Origin: Gilliamella mensalis
GTDB taxonomy: Bacteria > Pseudomonadota > Gammaproteobacteria > Enterobacterales > Orbaceae
Reading direction: 5' to 3'
Length of the DNA: 64,000 nucleotides
Assembly: GCF_900103085.1 (NCBI RefSeq)
Contig: NZ_FMWR01000007.1
Location: forward strand, 62,001-126,000
Notes under the pieces: generated by a model
What the model was told of the DNA's origin: nothing
Databases searched by the model: none
The model's input: the letters and a program-made list of their open reading frames with translations, nothing else
Translations under genes and position numbers: made by a program
Shown here: positions 1 through 49,200 of the stretch, piece after piece
Layout of the letters: each line of letters opens with the position of its first letter
Position numbering within the stretch: the first letter of the stretch is position 1

Positions 1-183
1 AATACCGCTGGTGCCAGTACCGCTGCGGCTTTCTTATCACATTTTATAAAAAACTATCAACAAAAATGGTTACATATTGATTGCTCTGCAACATTCCGTA
101 AAAGTGCGACCGCTTTATGGGCAACAGGCGCAACAGGTATTGGGGTTAGGTCAATTGCTAATTTACTTAGTCAACTAAAATAA
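1..183 (+). CDS. pepB: Peptidase B (leucyl aminopeptidase family M17), C-terminal end only
   Basis: The first 60 codons in frame 1 are open up to a TAA at 181-183 and begin inside the protein. The translation contains [28 protein letters not shown] and [16 protein letters not shown], which matches the extreme C-terminus of enterobacterial PepB, a cytoplasmic metallo-aminopeptidase of the M17 family. The catalytic and metal-binding residues lie upstream of the window. In E. coli pepB sits at the end of the isc operon after iscX; here the isc operon is 6 kb downstream, so that linkage is broken, although iscX could still precede pepB outside the window. A hairpin terminator follows at once. Confidence 0.82.
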
Positions 184-11294: not shown

Positions 11295-11323
11295 TTGCTG
11301 TTAGTTAACTAACAGAGTATAAT
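11295..11323 (+). promoter_or_regulatory. Probable S10 operon promoter containing a perfect 18-bp palindrome
   Basis: TTGCTG (11295-11300) and TATAAT (11318-11323) are 17 bases apart, giving a likely start of transcription near 11330 and a leader of about 190 bases before rpsJ. The spacer holds the perfect palindrome CTGTTAGTTAACTAACAG (11298-11315), which overlaps the -35 and ends 2 bases before the -10. I know of no E. coli counterpart to this palindrome. Confidence 0.65.
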
Positions 11324-44554: not shown

Positions 44555-45814
44555 TTATTTAATGATATCTCCCATCACCTGTTTAAACGTTGAAAAAGAA
44601 CAGAACCCCTTCACATTAGTTGGGCAGTTTGTCATGGTTAACGTAACTTTTTGTGGTGGATTATGACGATTTAATGGTGATAAATTGCGAATTTGTTCAG
44701 TGGATTGGTAAAAGTATTCTATTTTCATTAAATTCTCACCACTACGATTGTCGCGCCATTTTTGAAATACGACTTTACCTCCGATCGGTGTGGTTTCAAA
44801 TTGATTAGGCAAGTTATAGGATTGAATTTGCATAGCGGAAAATAATGAAGCAACATTGGAATCGTGCCCCACTAAAAGAGTGAATTTAGCTGTCTCTCCA
44901 TTGTCAGTAAAAGCGTGATTAATATAATTCACTAAATTTGCAGAAACATGTTTTGCCACGGTAGGTGAGCCAAATAGTACGGTATTATAATGCTCTTTAA
45001 TAGCAACAAGTTGTTTTAACTGTTGCGCATCTTTTATTTTACCCCAAGCAATCTTTTTTAAAGGTGTTCCTTCATAATATTGTAAAATGAAGGCGTCAGC
45101 AATTGATGTGCCGGTACGCAGTGGTCCAGTAATGCCGGGTTCTTTTCCTTTTTCTATTATTAACTCTGTTGGTAAATCAATAAAGTCGCACTGTTTGTCA
45201 GTGATGCAATTAGTTGATTTTTGATAATCAATTATCTTAGCCATATTTTGATATGCGTTGTTAAGTTTTTTATTTAAACCTGTAATACCATTTACATCCG
45301 CATTTTTGTTAATTGAAGCAATAGCAGCCTGCTTAAATTCAACACTATCATCTCTAATTACAGGGAAAAATAAGGGATCCATCTGACCAAGTTTTTCTTT
45401 ATGAACGATCGGTAAAATACATCCGGGGTAGGCACCAACAATAAAAAATTGCCCTGTTGCAATCGTTCGTTGAAGACTATTAGTATAAATATAGACATCT
45501 TTTTCGTTTGGACAATTATCGGCAGTTAATAATTTATTATCGGCTAACCACTGACTAAAATAGTGGCCAAAATAGCTTTCTAACGCTCCTCCTCGCGTTG
45601 TTAAATAACTGGCTGGCGTATCCGACTGTGGCCATTGATAGGGTGTGATTTTACCTAGAGTGCTTGTTGGACTAGCTAACGGGGCCCGTAAACCATGGCG
45701 ACTAAAAACCACAACTTGCTCTAAAGTGTAATCATCATGGTTATCTGCTGCATATGTTGAAAATGATACAATACATGCCAAACCTAACATCCCTTTGAAT
45801 ACTATTTTTTTCAT
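44555..45814 (-). CDS. agp: Periplasmic glucose-1-phosphatase (histidine acid phosphatase family)
   Basis: 419 residues (413 in E. coli Agp). A signal peptide ends near residue 22 (STYAA-DN). The catalytic RHGxRxP motif is VVFSRHGLRAPLASP and the HD proton donor is in LLVGHDSNVASLFSA. Other close matches to Agp are NSLQRTIATGQFFIVGAYPG and TPIGGKVVFQKWRD. It releases glucose from glucose-1-phosphate in the periplasm; phytase activity is known for some relatives. E. coli Agp has Asn in place of the Gly of RHG; here the usual Gly is present. Stand-alone gene. Confidence 0.9.
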   Translation of the reverse strand: MKKIVFKGMLGLACIVSFSTYAADNHDDYTLEQVVVFSRHGLRAPLASPTSTLGKITPYQWPQSDTPASYLTTRGGALESYFGHYFSQWLADNKLLTADNCPNEKDVYIYTNSLQRTIATGQFFIVGAYPGCILPIVHKEKLGQMDPLFFPVIRDDSVEFKQAAIASINKNADVNGITGLNKKLNNAYQNMAKIIDYQKSTNCITDKQCDFIDLPTELIIEKGKEPGITGPLRTGTSIADAFILQYYEGTPLKKIAWGKIKDAQQLKQLVAIKEHYNTVLFGSPTVAKHVSANLVNYINHAFTDNGETAKFTLLVGHDSNVASLFSAMQIQSYNLPNQFETTPIGGKVVFQKWRDNRSGENLMKIEYFYQSTEQIRNLSPLNRHNPPQKVTLTMTNCPTNVKGFCSFSTFKQVMGDIIK

Positions 45815-46239: not shown

Positions 46240-47400
46240 TTATGATGCATTAGCTGTCTTTTTGACTCGCTCAACAAACATCATTACCACAAAAGCAATA
46301 ACCGTTAAATAGATGATGTAAGCCCCATAAGTTGCTAACATATCAATCAGTGAACGCCCTCGCATGGCAAAATCGCGGAAAAATCGAAATAACCAAACTA
46401 ATGGAAATGCGTGGCTAATGTAGTATGTCCAAATTGGCATAATACCCACTGCCATTGTTGATCCCCCCATAATAAACCCCGGCGGAACCAAGAAGATCAT
46501 TCGGCTTGCACCTTCGCCCGGATTATTTGTTGTCCAAGAAAGTAAAAAGGCTAACCAACCAAAAGCAAGCCCTGTCATAAATACACTTGGTACAAAAGCA
46601 AAATAGTTACCTTCAAAACGCAGTTGTCCAAATATTACCAGTATAGCGGTAATAAGGGTTAATGCGGTTGTGTAAAATAGTGCATAAGGAATTGTTCTTG
46701 CTAATAAAGATAAGAAGCCTCTTTCTATGGCCATTTGCCACATGCCGGTTACTTTTAATCGACCAATAATCATTAATGAGGTTAACCCGTAAGTTAATGA
46801 TGAAAAAAAGTAAACAAAATAAATAATTGTTGAAATTGTCGATGAACTCGCTGGATTAAACAGGTAGCGTGTTTTAAGTTGCATGGGTGATAAGGTCGCT
46901 TCAATGCCTTCTTTACCAAGCCCTAATGCGGCGATTTTACCAACACTCAGTTCGGCGCCTAATTCAGGAATATATTCATTAAGACTTTGTAGTACTTTGG
47001 CATTTTGTGCATCATTGGTGTCATCAGCAAAATAACCTAGGCGAACGGTTTGCTCGCCTTTTTTTAAGCTTTTTTCTAAGCCTTTAGGAATATATAAAAC
47101 ACCTAAATTACGATCGTGTGAAACTAAGGTTATGGGGTTTACTGGCGATCTTATGACCTCGGTTACTTCAATGTAAGGTGATGTATTGACTTTACTAATT
47201 AATTCCGTCGAATAATTTGAGCCGTCAAGGTCAATCACTGCAATTTTACCTTCAAATACGGCTCCGTGACTTAATACAATAGAAAACACCAGCGAAACAA
47301 TGGCCGCTAAGCCAAGCGAAACTTTATAATAAGGGATAAAGTGACCTGACAACATGGCGTCAAGTTCTTCAAGCATAGATTTAATGATGTTTTGCATCAT
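46240..47400 (-). CDS. ABC-2 type permease (export, YhhJ/YbhR-like)
   Basis: 386 residues. One N-terminal membrane helix (about 28-45), a large periplasmic domain to about 175, then five to six helices, the layout of ABC2_membrane_3 permeases. MIFLVPPGFIMGGSTMAVGIMP and HAFPLVWLFRFFRDFAMRG are family-like. It overlaps hlyD by 4 bases (ATGA). Such permeases normally need a cytoplasmic ATPase, but none is encoded beside it. Substrate unknown; the neighbouring HlyD and MarR suggest efflux of a toxic compound. Confidence 0.82.
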   Translation of the reverse strand: MMQNIIKSMLEELDAMLSGHFIPYYKVSLGLAAIVSLVFSIVLSHGAVFEGKIAVIDLDGSNYSTELISKVNTSPYIEVTEVIRSPVNPITLVSHDRNLGVLYIPKGLEKSLKKGEQTVRLGYFADDTNDAQNAKVLQSLNEYIPELGAELSVGKIAALGLGKEGIEATLSPMQLKTRYLFNPASSSTISTIIYFVYFFSSLTYGLTSLMIIGRLKVTGMWQMAIERGFLSLLARTIPYALFYTTALTLITAILVIFGQLRFEGNYFAFVPSVFMTGLAFGWLAFLLSWTTNNPGEGASRMIFLVPPGFIMGGSTMAVGIMPIWTYYISHAFPLVWLFRFFRDFAMRGRSLIDMLATYGAYIIYLTVIAFVVMMFVERVKKTANAS

Positions 47401-48527
47401 TGATCCACCTCAAGTGTCATTCCGGTTAATAGTTTTGGAATCGATTCTATGTAAATTCTAACTTGATAAGAGGTTAGATCGGCTTGACCACGTTCTCGTG
47501 TCATACGTAAATCGGCAAATGATGGCGCAGCGGTGGCAAAGCGGACTTTACCTTTTACTTCTTTATTTAGCGCAATCACATTAGCGGTGATAGTTGTGTC
47601 AGGTTGATAATCATTCACCATTTTTTCATTCACATAAATGTCGATATATTTGCGGTTAGTCTCTAACAATACTGCTGGCGCACCGTTGGGTACCATTTCG
47701 CCATCTTCAAACATTAGTTTTAATATTTTTCCATCTTCAGGTGCTGTTAACGTTAGTCGTTCATAATTGAGTTGTAACTGTTTTAATTCAGCTTCACCTT
47801 GCGCAAGTTGTGCCTTAAGCTGTGCTAATTGATTTTGGCGATTTTGGAGCTTTTGCCGTGCAATTAAGATGGACTTTAATGTCATACCGGTTGCATTTTG
47901 TGTTTGTTCAAATTGGCTAATTTGTTCTGGTGTTGCACCAATCATTAAAGTCGATAATTGGCTTTCAATTTGCACAACTTGCATTTTGGCATTAATAAAT
48001 GCATTACGTGCATTATCAAGTTGTGACTGTGAGTTGCCACCTGTTTTTCGTAATTGGGTTTGGCGATCAAATTCAGTCGTCGCTAAATTGCGAGCAGATT
48101 TTGCTGCTTCTAAATTGGCTTGTACTTCTTCAATTTTGCGCCAATTTGTTAATTCTGAAAGGTTAGTTTCATTTTGCGTAATTTCAATAGCGGCTTGTTC
48201 TTGATTGACTGCTGCTTTTTGGCTATCAACTAAAGCTTGTAAGCGATCGATAGCCAGCTTGGTATCTATGTCTTCTAATTGCATTAACCGATCACCTTTT
48301 TTTACCATTTGTGACTCTTGCACAAATCGCTGGGTGACTTTTCCGCCGACATTTTGAAAGGCAATATTAATTTCGTCAGCTGTTAATACGCCAGATTTAA
48401 TGCTTTTGGCAACAGATACCGCATCATTTCTTGAACCTACAAAGATTAAAAATGAGCCAAAAATGAGTAGAAGTAAAAAGATAACAGGAATTTTGACATT
48501 TTTTTTCATATATAGCTTATTTTCCAT
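47397..48527 (-). CDS. HlyD-family membrane fusion protein
   Basis: 376 residues. One membrane anchor (about 13-30), a first lipoyl half (IAFQNVGGKVTQRFVQESQM), a long coiled-coil hairpin (about 80-255) and a second lipoyl half followed by a beta barrel (LTAPEDGKILKLMFEDGEMV). It should bridge the inner-membrane permease and an outer-membrane TolC-like channel. An alternative start is the Met at residue 7; neither start has a good ribosome site. A MarR-type operator lies 5 bases before the first ATG. Confidence 0.88.
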   Translation of the reverse strand: MENKLYMKKNVKIPVIFLLLLIFGSFLIFVGSRNDAVSVAKSIKSGVLTADEINIAFQNVGGKVTQRFVQESQMVKKGDRLMQLEDIDTKLAIDRLQALVDSQKAAVNQEQAAIEITQNETNLSELTNWRKIEEVQANLEAAKSARNLATTEFDRQTQLRKTGGNSQSQLDNARNAFINAKMQVVQIESQLSTLMIGATPEQISQFEQTQNATGMTLKSILIARQKLQNRQNQLAQLKAQLAQGEAELKQLQLNYERLTLTAPEDGKILKLMFEDGEMVPNGAPAVLLETNRKYIDIYVNEKMVNDYQPDTTITANVIALNKEVKGKVRFATAAPSFADLRMTRERGQADLTSYQVRIYIESIPKLLTGMTLEVDQ

Positions 48528-48531
48528 TTAT

Positions 48532-48543
48532 TTAGTCAGCTAA
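48532..48543. promoter_or_regulatory. MarR-type operator before hlyD
   Basis: TTAGTCAGCTAA lies in a 22-base block (48526-48547) that matches the block at 49095-49116 before marR at 20 positions. Its half-sites TTAG/CTAA make it palindromic. Position just before hlyD implies repression of the export genes. Confidence 0.75.
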
Positions 48544-48583
48544 CTATTTAAGTAAAAAGAATGACTTTAATGATTAAAGTCCG

Positions 48584-49081
48584 TTATTTTCGTAATAATT
48601 TGCGCAACATCGCGATTAAAGACTCTTGTTCTTGCGAGTTTAGCACCTGCGCAAAAGCGCGAATTGATTTAAGGTGGTTAGGCAATGCCTCTTGAATCAG
48701 CCTTTCACCTGCATCTGTTAAGGTGATTAGGCGAGAACGACCATCCTCACCACTTTTTGTCATCGAGATTAAAGGCGCTGGAGATGCCAGCATGCGTTTA
48801 ACCATGACAGATACCGTCGCCGGTGTTACGCCAATGCGCAAAGCAAGATCGCTGGCACAGGTTTCACCTTCTGAATACAGTGACATCAGTAGGGCAAATT
48901 TACCCTCAGAAACGCCGTAATCTTTATCTAATTGTGCATAGATATTTGCGCGAATGAGATCGGCGGTTGTGATTAAACTTAAAACCAGATCAACACCAGA
49001 AACTTCAACAATGTCATTATTAAATCTTTGTGCACGCGCTAAGGTTTCACGTGAAGGAAGCTTTCTAGAATTGTAATTCAA
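48584..49081 (-). CDS. MarR-family transcriptional regulator
   Basis: 165 residues. Winged helix with ASDLALRIGVTPATVSVMVK as recognition region and SGEDGRSRLITLTDAGERLI as wing, typical of MarR. It probably represses itself and the hlyD-permease pair through the two matching operators, with release by a small toxic ligand. 56 bases separate it from hlyD. Confidence 0.92.
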   Translation of the reverse strand: MNYNSRKLPSRETLARAQRFNNDIVEVSGVDLVLSLITTADLIRANIYAQLDKDYGVSEGKFALLMSLYSEGETCASDLALRIGVTPATVSVMVKRMLASPAPLISMTKSGEDGRSRLITLTDAGERLIQEALPNHLKSIRAFAQVLNSQEQESLIAMLRKLLRK

Positions 49082-49100
49082 TTATCATTACTCAATTTAT

Positions 49101-49112
49101 TTAGTCGGCTAA
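49101..49112. promoter_or_regulatory. MarR-type operator before marR
   Basis: TTAGTCGGCTAA, 19 bases upstream of the marR start, is the partner of the site before hlyD. The shared surroundings (ATTTATTTAGTC before, GCTAA and TAT after) extend beyond what chance would suggest. Confidence 0.75.
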
Positions 49113-49200
49113 TTATAAACATTTAATTATGGTTGGCAACTTTTTTAGCTGTTTTTATTGATTTGCTGGGTAATTAAGTCGGGTATTTTGATAGGTATTT

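Follow-up and report, generated by a model that had tools for sequence, protein, structure and literature searches.

A marR-hlyD-permease operon of Gilliamella mensalis conserved without an ATPase gene: a probable TolC-dependent exporter built on an ABC-2 membrane domain

The gene set HP1489-HP1488-HP1487-HP1486 of Helicobacter pylori encodes an adaptor and ABC-2 permeases of the ATP-binding cassette (ABC) type, and the accessible part of its description gives no ATPase gene at the locus (PMC9570263). The same part of the text relates that the authors sought an ATPase, found no clear one and presume that one is encoded elsewhere, and that the orphan HP0853 was named as candidate because H. anseris carries an orthologue in the operon (PMC9570263). 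A missing ATPase in a related arrangement is thus already known. Here we describe an operon consisting of a MarR-family regulator gene (marR), the gene of a HlyD-type periplasmic adaptor (hlyD) and a single ABC-2 permease gene, which lies in a stretch of 64,000 nucleotides from Gilliamella mensalis (contig NZ_FMWR01000007.1, positions 62,001 to 126,000 of the forward strand). This whole stretch is called the window below, its first letter being position 1; loci and genomes are cited by our own handles (L and G numbers). Following up an earlier note made from the letters of the window, we propose with a probability of roughly 0.6 that the operon encodes a MarR-controlled, TolC-dependent exporter that works without an ABC ATPase and is probably driven by an ion gradient.

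On the minus strand of the window marR (48584..49081, 165 amino acids, TTG start) is followed by hlyD (47397..48527, 376 amino acids) and, as last gene, by the permease gene (46240..47400, 386 amino acids). The gene calls agree with the tight unit described in the earlier note, in which the last two genes overlap by four bases (47397-47400). Its start at 46240 stood as well, but not its end at 49116, which lies 35 bases upstream of the TTG start of marR. The permease matches ABC2_membrane_3 (PF12698) with 94.8 bits (cut-off 31.6), its sole Pfam match at E <= 0.001; its predicted fold, discussed below, is that of type V ABC membrane domains. The adaptor matches HlyD_3 (PF13437) with 29.3 bits (cut-off 22.2) and the regulator PF01047 with 28.4 bits (cut-off 24.6). 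The operon genes are under purifying selection: the ratio of nonsynonymous to synonymous substitution rates (dN/dS) is 0.02-0.07 for the permease in five of five pairs and 0.05-0.07 for hlyD in three of three, at dS values of 0.58-5.8, several of which are near or past saturation at synonymous sites.

Is the lack of an ATPase gene a peculiarity of one strain? The genome has 55 matches to PF00005 (E <= 0.001) and none of them falls inside the window (C16:62001-126000), as had been noted for the surroundings of the operon. The permease is found in 32 of 35 genomes of the same genus (Gilliamella-like) at 86-100% identity, being missing from G004, G005 and G011, and at 72% identity in G039, a genome of another family. 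At all 30 genus loci that were read hlyD lies directly 5' of the permease and a marR fragment, recognised by sequence, before hlyD, and no ATPase was found within about 1.5 kb per side. Since the genes after the permease differ among these loci, the operon probably ends with the permease. The one Walker A frame observed, of 187 amino acids in L056, was ruled out as an ABC ATPase by its length. Moreover, a scan of genome contigs yielded 44 orthologous loci with identities down to 42%, many of whose Gilliamella members are common to both sets, from Gilliamella, Frischella, Candidatus Schmidhempelia, Yersinia, Serratia, Entomohabitans, Sutterella, Mesosutterella, Dakarella, and Succinivibrio and relatives. 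Directly upstream of the permease stands hlyD in 44 of 44 loci and marR lies upstream in 36, while a cognate ABC ATPase in the operon was found in none of these stretches, which extend at most 6 kb per side and are in several cases shortened by contig ends. An ATPase gene in orthologous clusters, which had been named beforehand as the sign of simple loss, thus did not turn up. In three stretches an ATPase belongs to a gene set of its own, namely a cassette over 1 kb upstream of marR (L093), a gene on the opposite strand about 2 kb off (L099) and a divergent HlyD-ATPase-permease set (L126). Nine additional loci likewise gave no ATPase in the operon, of which L232, L234, L236, L238 and L240 repeat earlier loci and are not independent, and the permease of L237 runs off its contig. 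Within the order the single-permease family occurs in 35 of 394 genomes and 6 of 114 genera (E <= 1e-40). Simple loss in one strain is rejected because of this genus-wide and wider conservation at loci that, as read, have no ATPase; by its gene content, the operon is conserved without an ATPase across distant Proteobacteria.

Two more HlyD-linked sets without ATPase are found in the same genome, each with two tandem PF12698 permeases (set C15, L069:7361-10730; set C34, L070:6747-10112). Other Gammaproteobacteria also have this tandem HlyD-permease-permease arrangement, of which 13 sets in total were compared, and in five of them a TolC-sized frame of 456-510 amino acids, likened to TolC by size alone, stands just before HlyD.

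The permeases of both kinds can be compared with ATPase-linked relatives at the positions where an ATPase would dock. ATPase-linked PF12698 permeases carry the signature RE.E.GT...P in the loop between the transmembrane helices TM2 and TM3, which we take to be the ATPase-touching coupling helix of type V transporters, and this loop aligns with a stretch of a solved ABCH transporter. Coupling and connecting helices are described in general terms in the accessible part of PMC8277102. At the aligned position of the permease (residues 213-235; 46696..46764, minus strand) the signature is absent, and G213, R214 and R235 are invariant in the single-permease family. Expressed as [RK]E.[ED].G[TSN], a mark of the ATPase-linked rows in this comparison rather than a published definition, the coupling motif is shared by 38 of 42 ATPase-linked permeases, by none of 18 members of the single-permease family and by none of the 26 tandem permeases of the 13 sets. 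The connecting helix before TM1 (by alignment residues 11-19; 47344..47370, minus strand) reads EE.....SG in the permease versus KE.....RD in ATPase-linked relatives, which keep the Arg in 36 and the Asp in 40 of 42 rows; the single-permease family has Ser in 17/18 and Gly in 18/18. The rows are kin, so that these counts are not independent events. Both docking signatures thus appear to be lost in the single-permease family.

The rows of this comparison are no random sample: matches to the permease itself supplied 12 of the 13 tandem sets, and most ATPase-linked rows were taken from among the matches listed in a search of 60 genomes with PF12698, with two E. coli rows added. RbbA proteins were trimmed to their last 400 residues. 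Near-copies (L080, L093) were excluded, as were frames in L147 and L148 that were too long and overlapped, so that L148 gives no row, and the label of L074, which distance alone scored as ATPase-linked, was set by inspection. Seven of 35 regions (L161, L164, L165, L167, L168, L170, L171), each of which holds an ATPase, gave no permease by the phmmer threshold and were left out. In a tree of 86 permeases, which is unrooted, came from a quick search, has some long branches and includes the coupling-loop columns, each of the three groups forms one side of a branch, with Shimodaira-Hasegawa-like approximate likelihood ratio test (SH-aLRT) values of 94 for the ATPase-linked, 100 for the single and 72 for the tandem permeases, and the label with or without ATPase needs one change.

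The fold of the permease was predicted with AlphaFold2 from 26 rows. Foldseek returned five matches under 0.001, with ABCH at E 1.3e-5 to 7.8e-5, and weaker ones (E 0.008 and above) to ABCG, ABCA, NosFY and KpsMT. Aligned with VIA-align, the Foldseek matches reach Z 15.6-18.3 and are all type V ABC chains among the 50 rows listed, including ABCA1 (7tc0_A; Z 18.3, root-mean-square deviation 3.5 over 241 residues) and ABCH (8yzp_A; Z 17.4, 9.8 over 342 residues). As the structural matches are all type V, the permease is by predicted fold a type V (ABC-2) ABC membrane domain.

Could such a membrane domain obtain its ATPase from another locus? Outside seven weak matches (19.8-26.2 bits; three in one frame of 974 amino acids, together 47.8 bits), the PF00005 matches of the genome amount to 41 reading frames in the stretches covered, nine of which were named by family search and whose neighbours were judged by a crude hydropathy count. 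The frames for which no neighbouring membrane permease is evident encode LptB, ModF and four proteins of the ABC-F class (EttA, Uup and two that are presumably YbiT-like and YheS-like); a LolD/MacB-like frame has a four-helix neighbour. A search for orphan ATPases of the YbhF/RbbA type, as suggested in the earlier note, found none in this genome: the two that come into question, RbbA (L071), in which the ATPase is fused, and the YadG-like protein of a YadG/YadH-like pair (L072), each have their own permease. Outside the genus 17 genomes bear the permease. RbbA is over its cut-off in three of them, ten have only lower-scoring, YbhF-like matches, and the remaining four, all Succinivibrio/Succinatimonas (two isolate genomes, L123 and L124, and two metagenome bins), have no match to the RbbA model at E <= 1e-60. 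In these four the permease is the only PF12698 protein and the best score with the DrrA model TIGR01188, which speaks for the DrrA class and leaves ATPases of the KpsT and Wzt type aside, is 175-183 bits. In three of them the best match is a gene of 241 amino acids beside an RpoN-sized gene, which from these neighbours we take to be LptB-like. The corresponding scores in the G. mensalis genome, calculated with a different program, are 172.6 for LptB, 241.1 for the YadG-like protein and 363.1 for RbbA.

These data bear on the explanation that the operon encodes an ordinary ABC exporter with split genes, the permease borrowing RbbA, the YadG-like protein or some other ATPase encoded elsewhere. 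Certain ABC ATPases, those of the MsmK type, are shared between several permeases. Borrowing is also what the H. pylori authors presume for HP1486/HP1487, as far as the accessible text goes (PMC9570263). Several observations, some of which speak for borrowing, weigh against the proposed ion-driven exporter without an ATPase. RbbA exceeds its cut-off in 34 of 60 relatives; of the 32 genus genomes with the permease 29 have it over the cut-off, as does G039, and the three genus carriers without it (G019, G025, G032) are 59-86% complete; G004 and G011 have neither permease nor RbbA, a co-absence, and G005 and G035 have RbbA without the permease. RbbA is therefore too common in the genus to be excluded there by its occurrence. 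Carriers of the permease in Yersinia, Serratia and Sutterellaceae that do not have RbbA over the cut-off do have YbhF-like matches. The H. anseris operon, according to the accessible text, includes an ATPase gene, so that some sets of this general kind may use one (PMC9570263). Furthermore, four of the 42 ATPase-linked permeases also do not have the strict coupling motif (L126, a divergent set, and L162, L166, L169), and its absence alone is thus no proof of ATPase independence; the role of the loop as coupling helix is proposed from alignment and from known structures. Profile scores are 366 for tandem versus ATPase-linked permeases, 259 for tandem versus single and 190 for single versus ATPase-linked, and as the tandem permeases are closer to the ATPase-linked ones than to the single-permease family, a common ATPase-less clan with one loss is unsupported. 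The AlphaFold2 model is of medium quality (predicted local distance difference test, pLDDT, 70.3; predicted template modelling score, pTM, 0.61). Finally, none of the invariant acids of the family (E12, E50, D57, D59, D96, D126, D343) evidently suits proton coupling, D343 alone being placed in a C-terminal membrane helix, at a depth that is unsure; the invariant R342-D343 pair is the first candidate for such coupling.

Set against borrowing are the docking signatures, absent in all 18 members of the family, the permeases that RbbA and the YadG-like protein already possess, and the Succinivibrio/Succinatimonas genomes, where hits to the DrrA model reach only the level of LptB. In addition, two Yersinia carriers and one Serratia carrier are without RbbA over the cut-off, though with the YbhF-like matches mentioned. 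Of the two options offered in the earlier note, the lost contact motifs and the Succinivibrio-type genomes without a fitting ATPase favour the one that this permease subgroup works differently; a borrowed ATPase is made improbable by the motifs and retains the distribution of RbbA in the genus in its favour. On balance we regard borrowing as unlikely.

An exporter of the proposed kind would need an outer-membrane partner. HlyD carries in its translation the motif RxxxLxxxxxxS at residues 155-166 (RQTQLRKTGGNS; 48030..48065, minus strand). This tip motif binds TolC according to the accessible part of the source from which the definition is taken (PMC3391258). It is found as RxxxLxxxxxxS/T in 41 of 42 adaptors, the exception being a broken frame, and a TolC-like gene is present elsewhere in the genome (OEP-family frame, 454 amino acids, G000:C42:90547-91746). 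Both the adaptor tip motif and a TolC-like gene thus point to a TolC-dependent tripartite exporter. HlyD scores best with the adaptor of tandem set C15 (66.0 bits) and with YbhG (55.9 bits), as compared with 21.4 bits for EmrA, and reaches 71.6 bits on the EmrA model, below its cut-off of 390.8; an Emr-like origin of the adaptor is unsupported. In a Sutterella metagenome assembly (L122:4870-6017) hlyD is interrupted and spans two frames, with marR and the permease gene open.

The adaptor also speaks to the idea that the permease transports nothing and instead serves a structural, sensory or assembly function by means of the ABC-2 fold and a periplasmic domain. Pip/YhgE and EsaA are ABC-2-like proteins without an ATPase that have structural or receptor roles. 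Moreover, the H. pylori set affects flagellum stability according to the accessible text (PMC9570263). The close linkage in one operon to an adaptor of the TolC type, with a docking motif so widely kept, speaks against such a role, which we consider very improbable.

Control by MarR is suggested by operator-like palindromes upstream of marR (TTAGTCGGCTAA, 49101..49112) and upstream of hlyD (TTAGTCAGCTAA, 48532..48543). A search with the pattern T[TA]AGNNNNCT[AT]A, which is loose but whose matches are nearly all TTAGYYGRCTAA, gave a palindrome starting 21-37 bases ahead of marR at every one of the 36 loci that have this gene. At 34 of 35 loci a second one lies between marR and hlyD or within the first 60 bases of hlyD as called. 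The palindromes are kept across Enterobacterales and Sutterellaceae, two Sutterellaceae loci having a weaker variant before marR; upstream of hlyD none was found in the four Succinivibrio-type loci examined. The pattern TTAGYYRRCTAA has four matches in the window versus 0.13 expected, two of them in the operon. The conservation of the palindromes before marR and hlyD supports local control by MarR, which may bind at these two candidate operators. A wider MarR regulon was considered and dropped, two further TTAGTCNGCTAA sites in the genome lying at or beyond gene ends. The other two TTAGYYRRCTAA palindromes of the window (167-178 and 11301-11312) have no evident link to the operon.

A regulated operon could also serve a passive gate or channel, through which the substrate flows down its own gradient into HlyD and TolC with no active drive. 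Such a gate would fit an operon without ATPase and a permease with no evident buried acid for proton coupling; MarR-linked palindromes in distant bacteria, on the other hand, fit an active detoxification pump better, though not exclusively, and the passive gate seems to us quite unlikely.

How might an exporter without an ATPase work? From the operon, its conservation, the absent docking signatures, the predicted fold, the tip motif and the palindromes, as read from sequence, we infer the following. MarR would repress the operon by binding two TTAGYYGRCTAA-like sites, before marR and before hlyD, and would be released by an inducing compound. The permease, possibly as a dimer, would form the inner-membrane gate, the RLS tip of HlyD would connect it to the housekeeping TolC, and the compound would leave through TolC. 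In the cell the permease would not use an ATPase but be driven by an ion gradient, which would make it a secondary transporter with the fold of an ABC protein. We consider this drive the most likely because uphill export has to be powered in some way and because there is a precedent, by analogy, in the membrane domain of LmrA, a different ABC fold, for which ethidium-proton symport without the ATPase domain is reported in the accessible text (PMC6155054). A Na+(Li+)/H+ activity claimed for YbhFSR, in the part of that source available, is at most suggestive (PMC7190983). It could further be imagined that ABC-2 permeases gave rise to ATPase-shedding, ion-gradient-driven tripartite exporters in a single and a tandem form, both with HlyD and TolC; this broader idea is tentative, and we lean somewhat against it.

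Upstream of the operon the next gene, from 49359, is divergent to marR, and downstream (44555-45814) lies a gene for a secreted histidine acid phosphatase (PF00328, branch 2). A histidine phosphatase-like gene is also found 3' of the permease in L040; at most of the 30 genus loci other genes take this place. Two short stretches that resemble the permease but contain stop codons (G022:C35:136663-136803, G014:C34:3039-3290) are possibly remnants of second copies. In L126 (L126:1-3997) the ATPase-bearing set stands back to back with the ATPase-less pair.

In the open-licence literature, covered in part by titles and the starts of abstracts, we found no paper describing the single-permease family, nor in the open-licence literature a later one settling the H. 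pylori ATPase. Within the literature searched, the single-permease MarR-linked family and its apparent conservation over distant Proteobacteria are new, as are the combined lack of an ATPase and of docking signatures and the finding of genomes with seemingly no ATPase of a fitting class. PF12698 permeases are routinely annotated as parts of ATP-driven ABC systems, and if ATPase-free groups are real, many of these energy annotations would be wrong. A published puzzle, the ATPase sought for the efflux set that is linked to the flagellum in H. pylori, becomes directly testable; on the broader idea of ATPase-shedding exporters given above, no such ATPase would exist. The permease would be a natural counterpart of the cut-down LmrA domain, an ABC membrane domain acting as secondary transporter. 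A single-gene permease with its own adaptor and candidate operators offers a compact system for such tests.

How does the operon compare with known systems? From HP1489-HP1486, to which it is likened by description and not by sequence, it differs in that the H. pylori set has, as far as the accessible text goes, two permeases, its own outer-membrane factor and no MarR (PMC9570263). The operon has one permease, and OEP matches lie on other contigs, which places it outside that type. YbhGFSR/RbbA-type exporters share the HlyD-type adaptor and the PF12698 permease but possess the coupling motif and an ATPase, as a gene of its own or fused. The permease is no member of the RbbA family (NF033858), with 31.2 bits against a cut-off of 1050. 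The tandem sets resemble the operon in their PF12698 permeases without coupling motif, in HlyD directly 5' and in having no ATPase, and differ in having two permeases on a separate tree branch and, in the 12 sets compared, no frame matching this MarR. The layout is that of EmrRAB (MprA-EmrA-EmrB), which in the E. coli order also consists of a MarR-type regulator, an adaptor and a membrane protein. EmrB is a protein of the major facilitator superfamily (MFS), whereas the membrane protein here is an ABC-2 permease with no MFS match, joined to an adaptor that scores below the EmrA cut-off.

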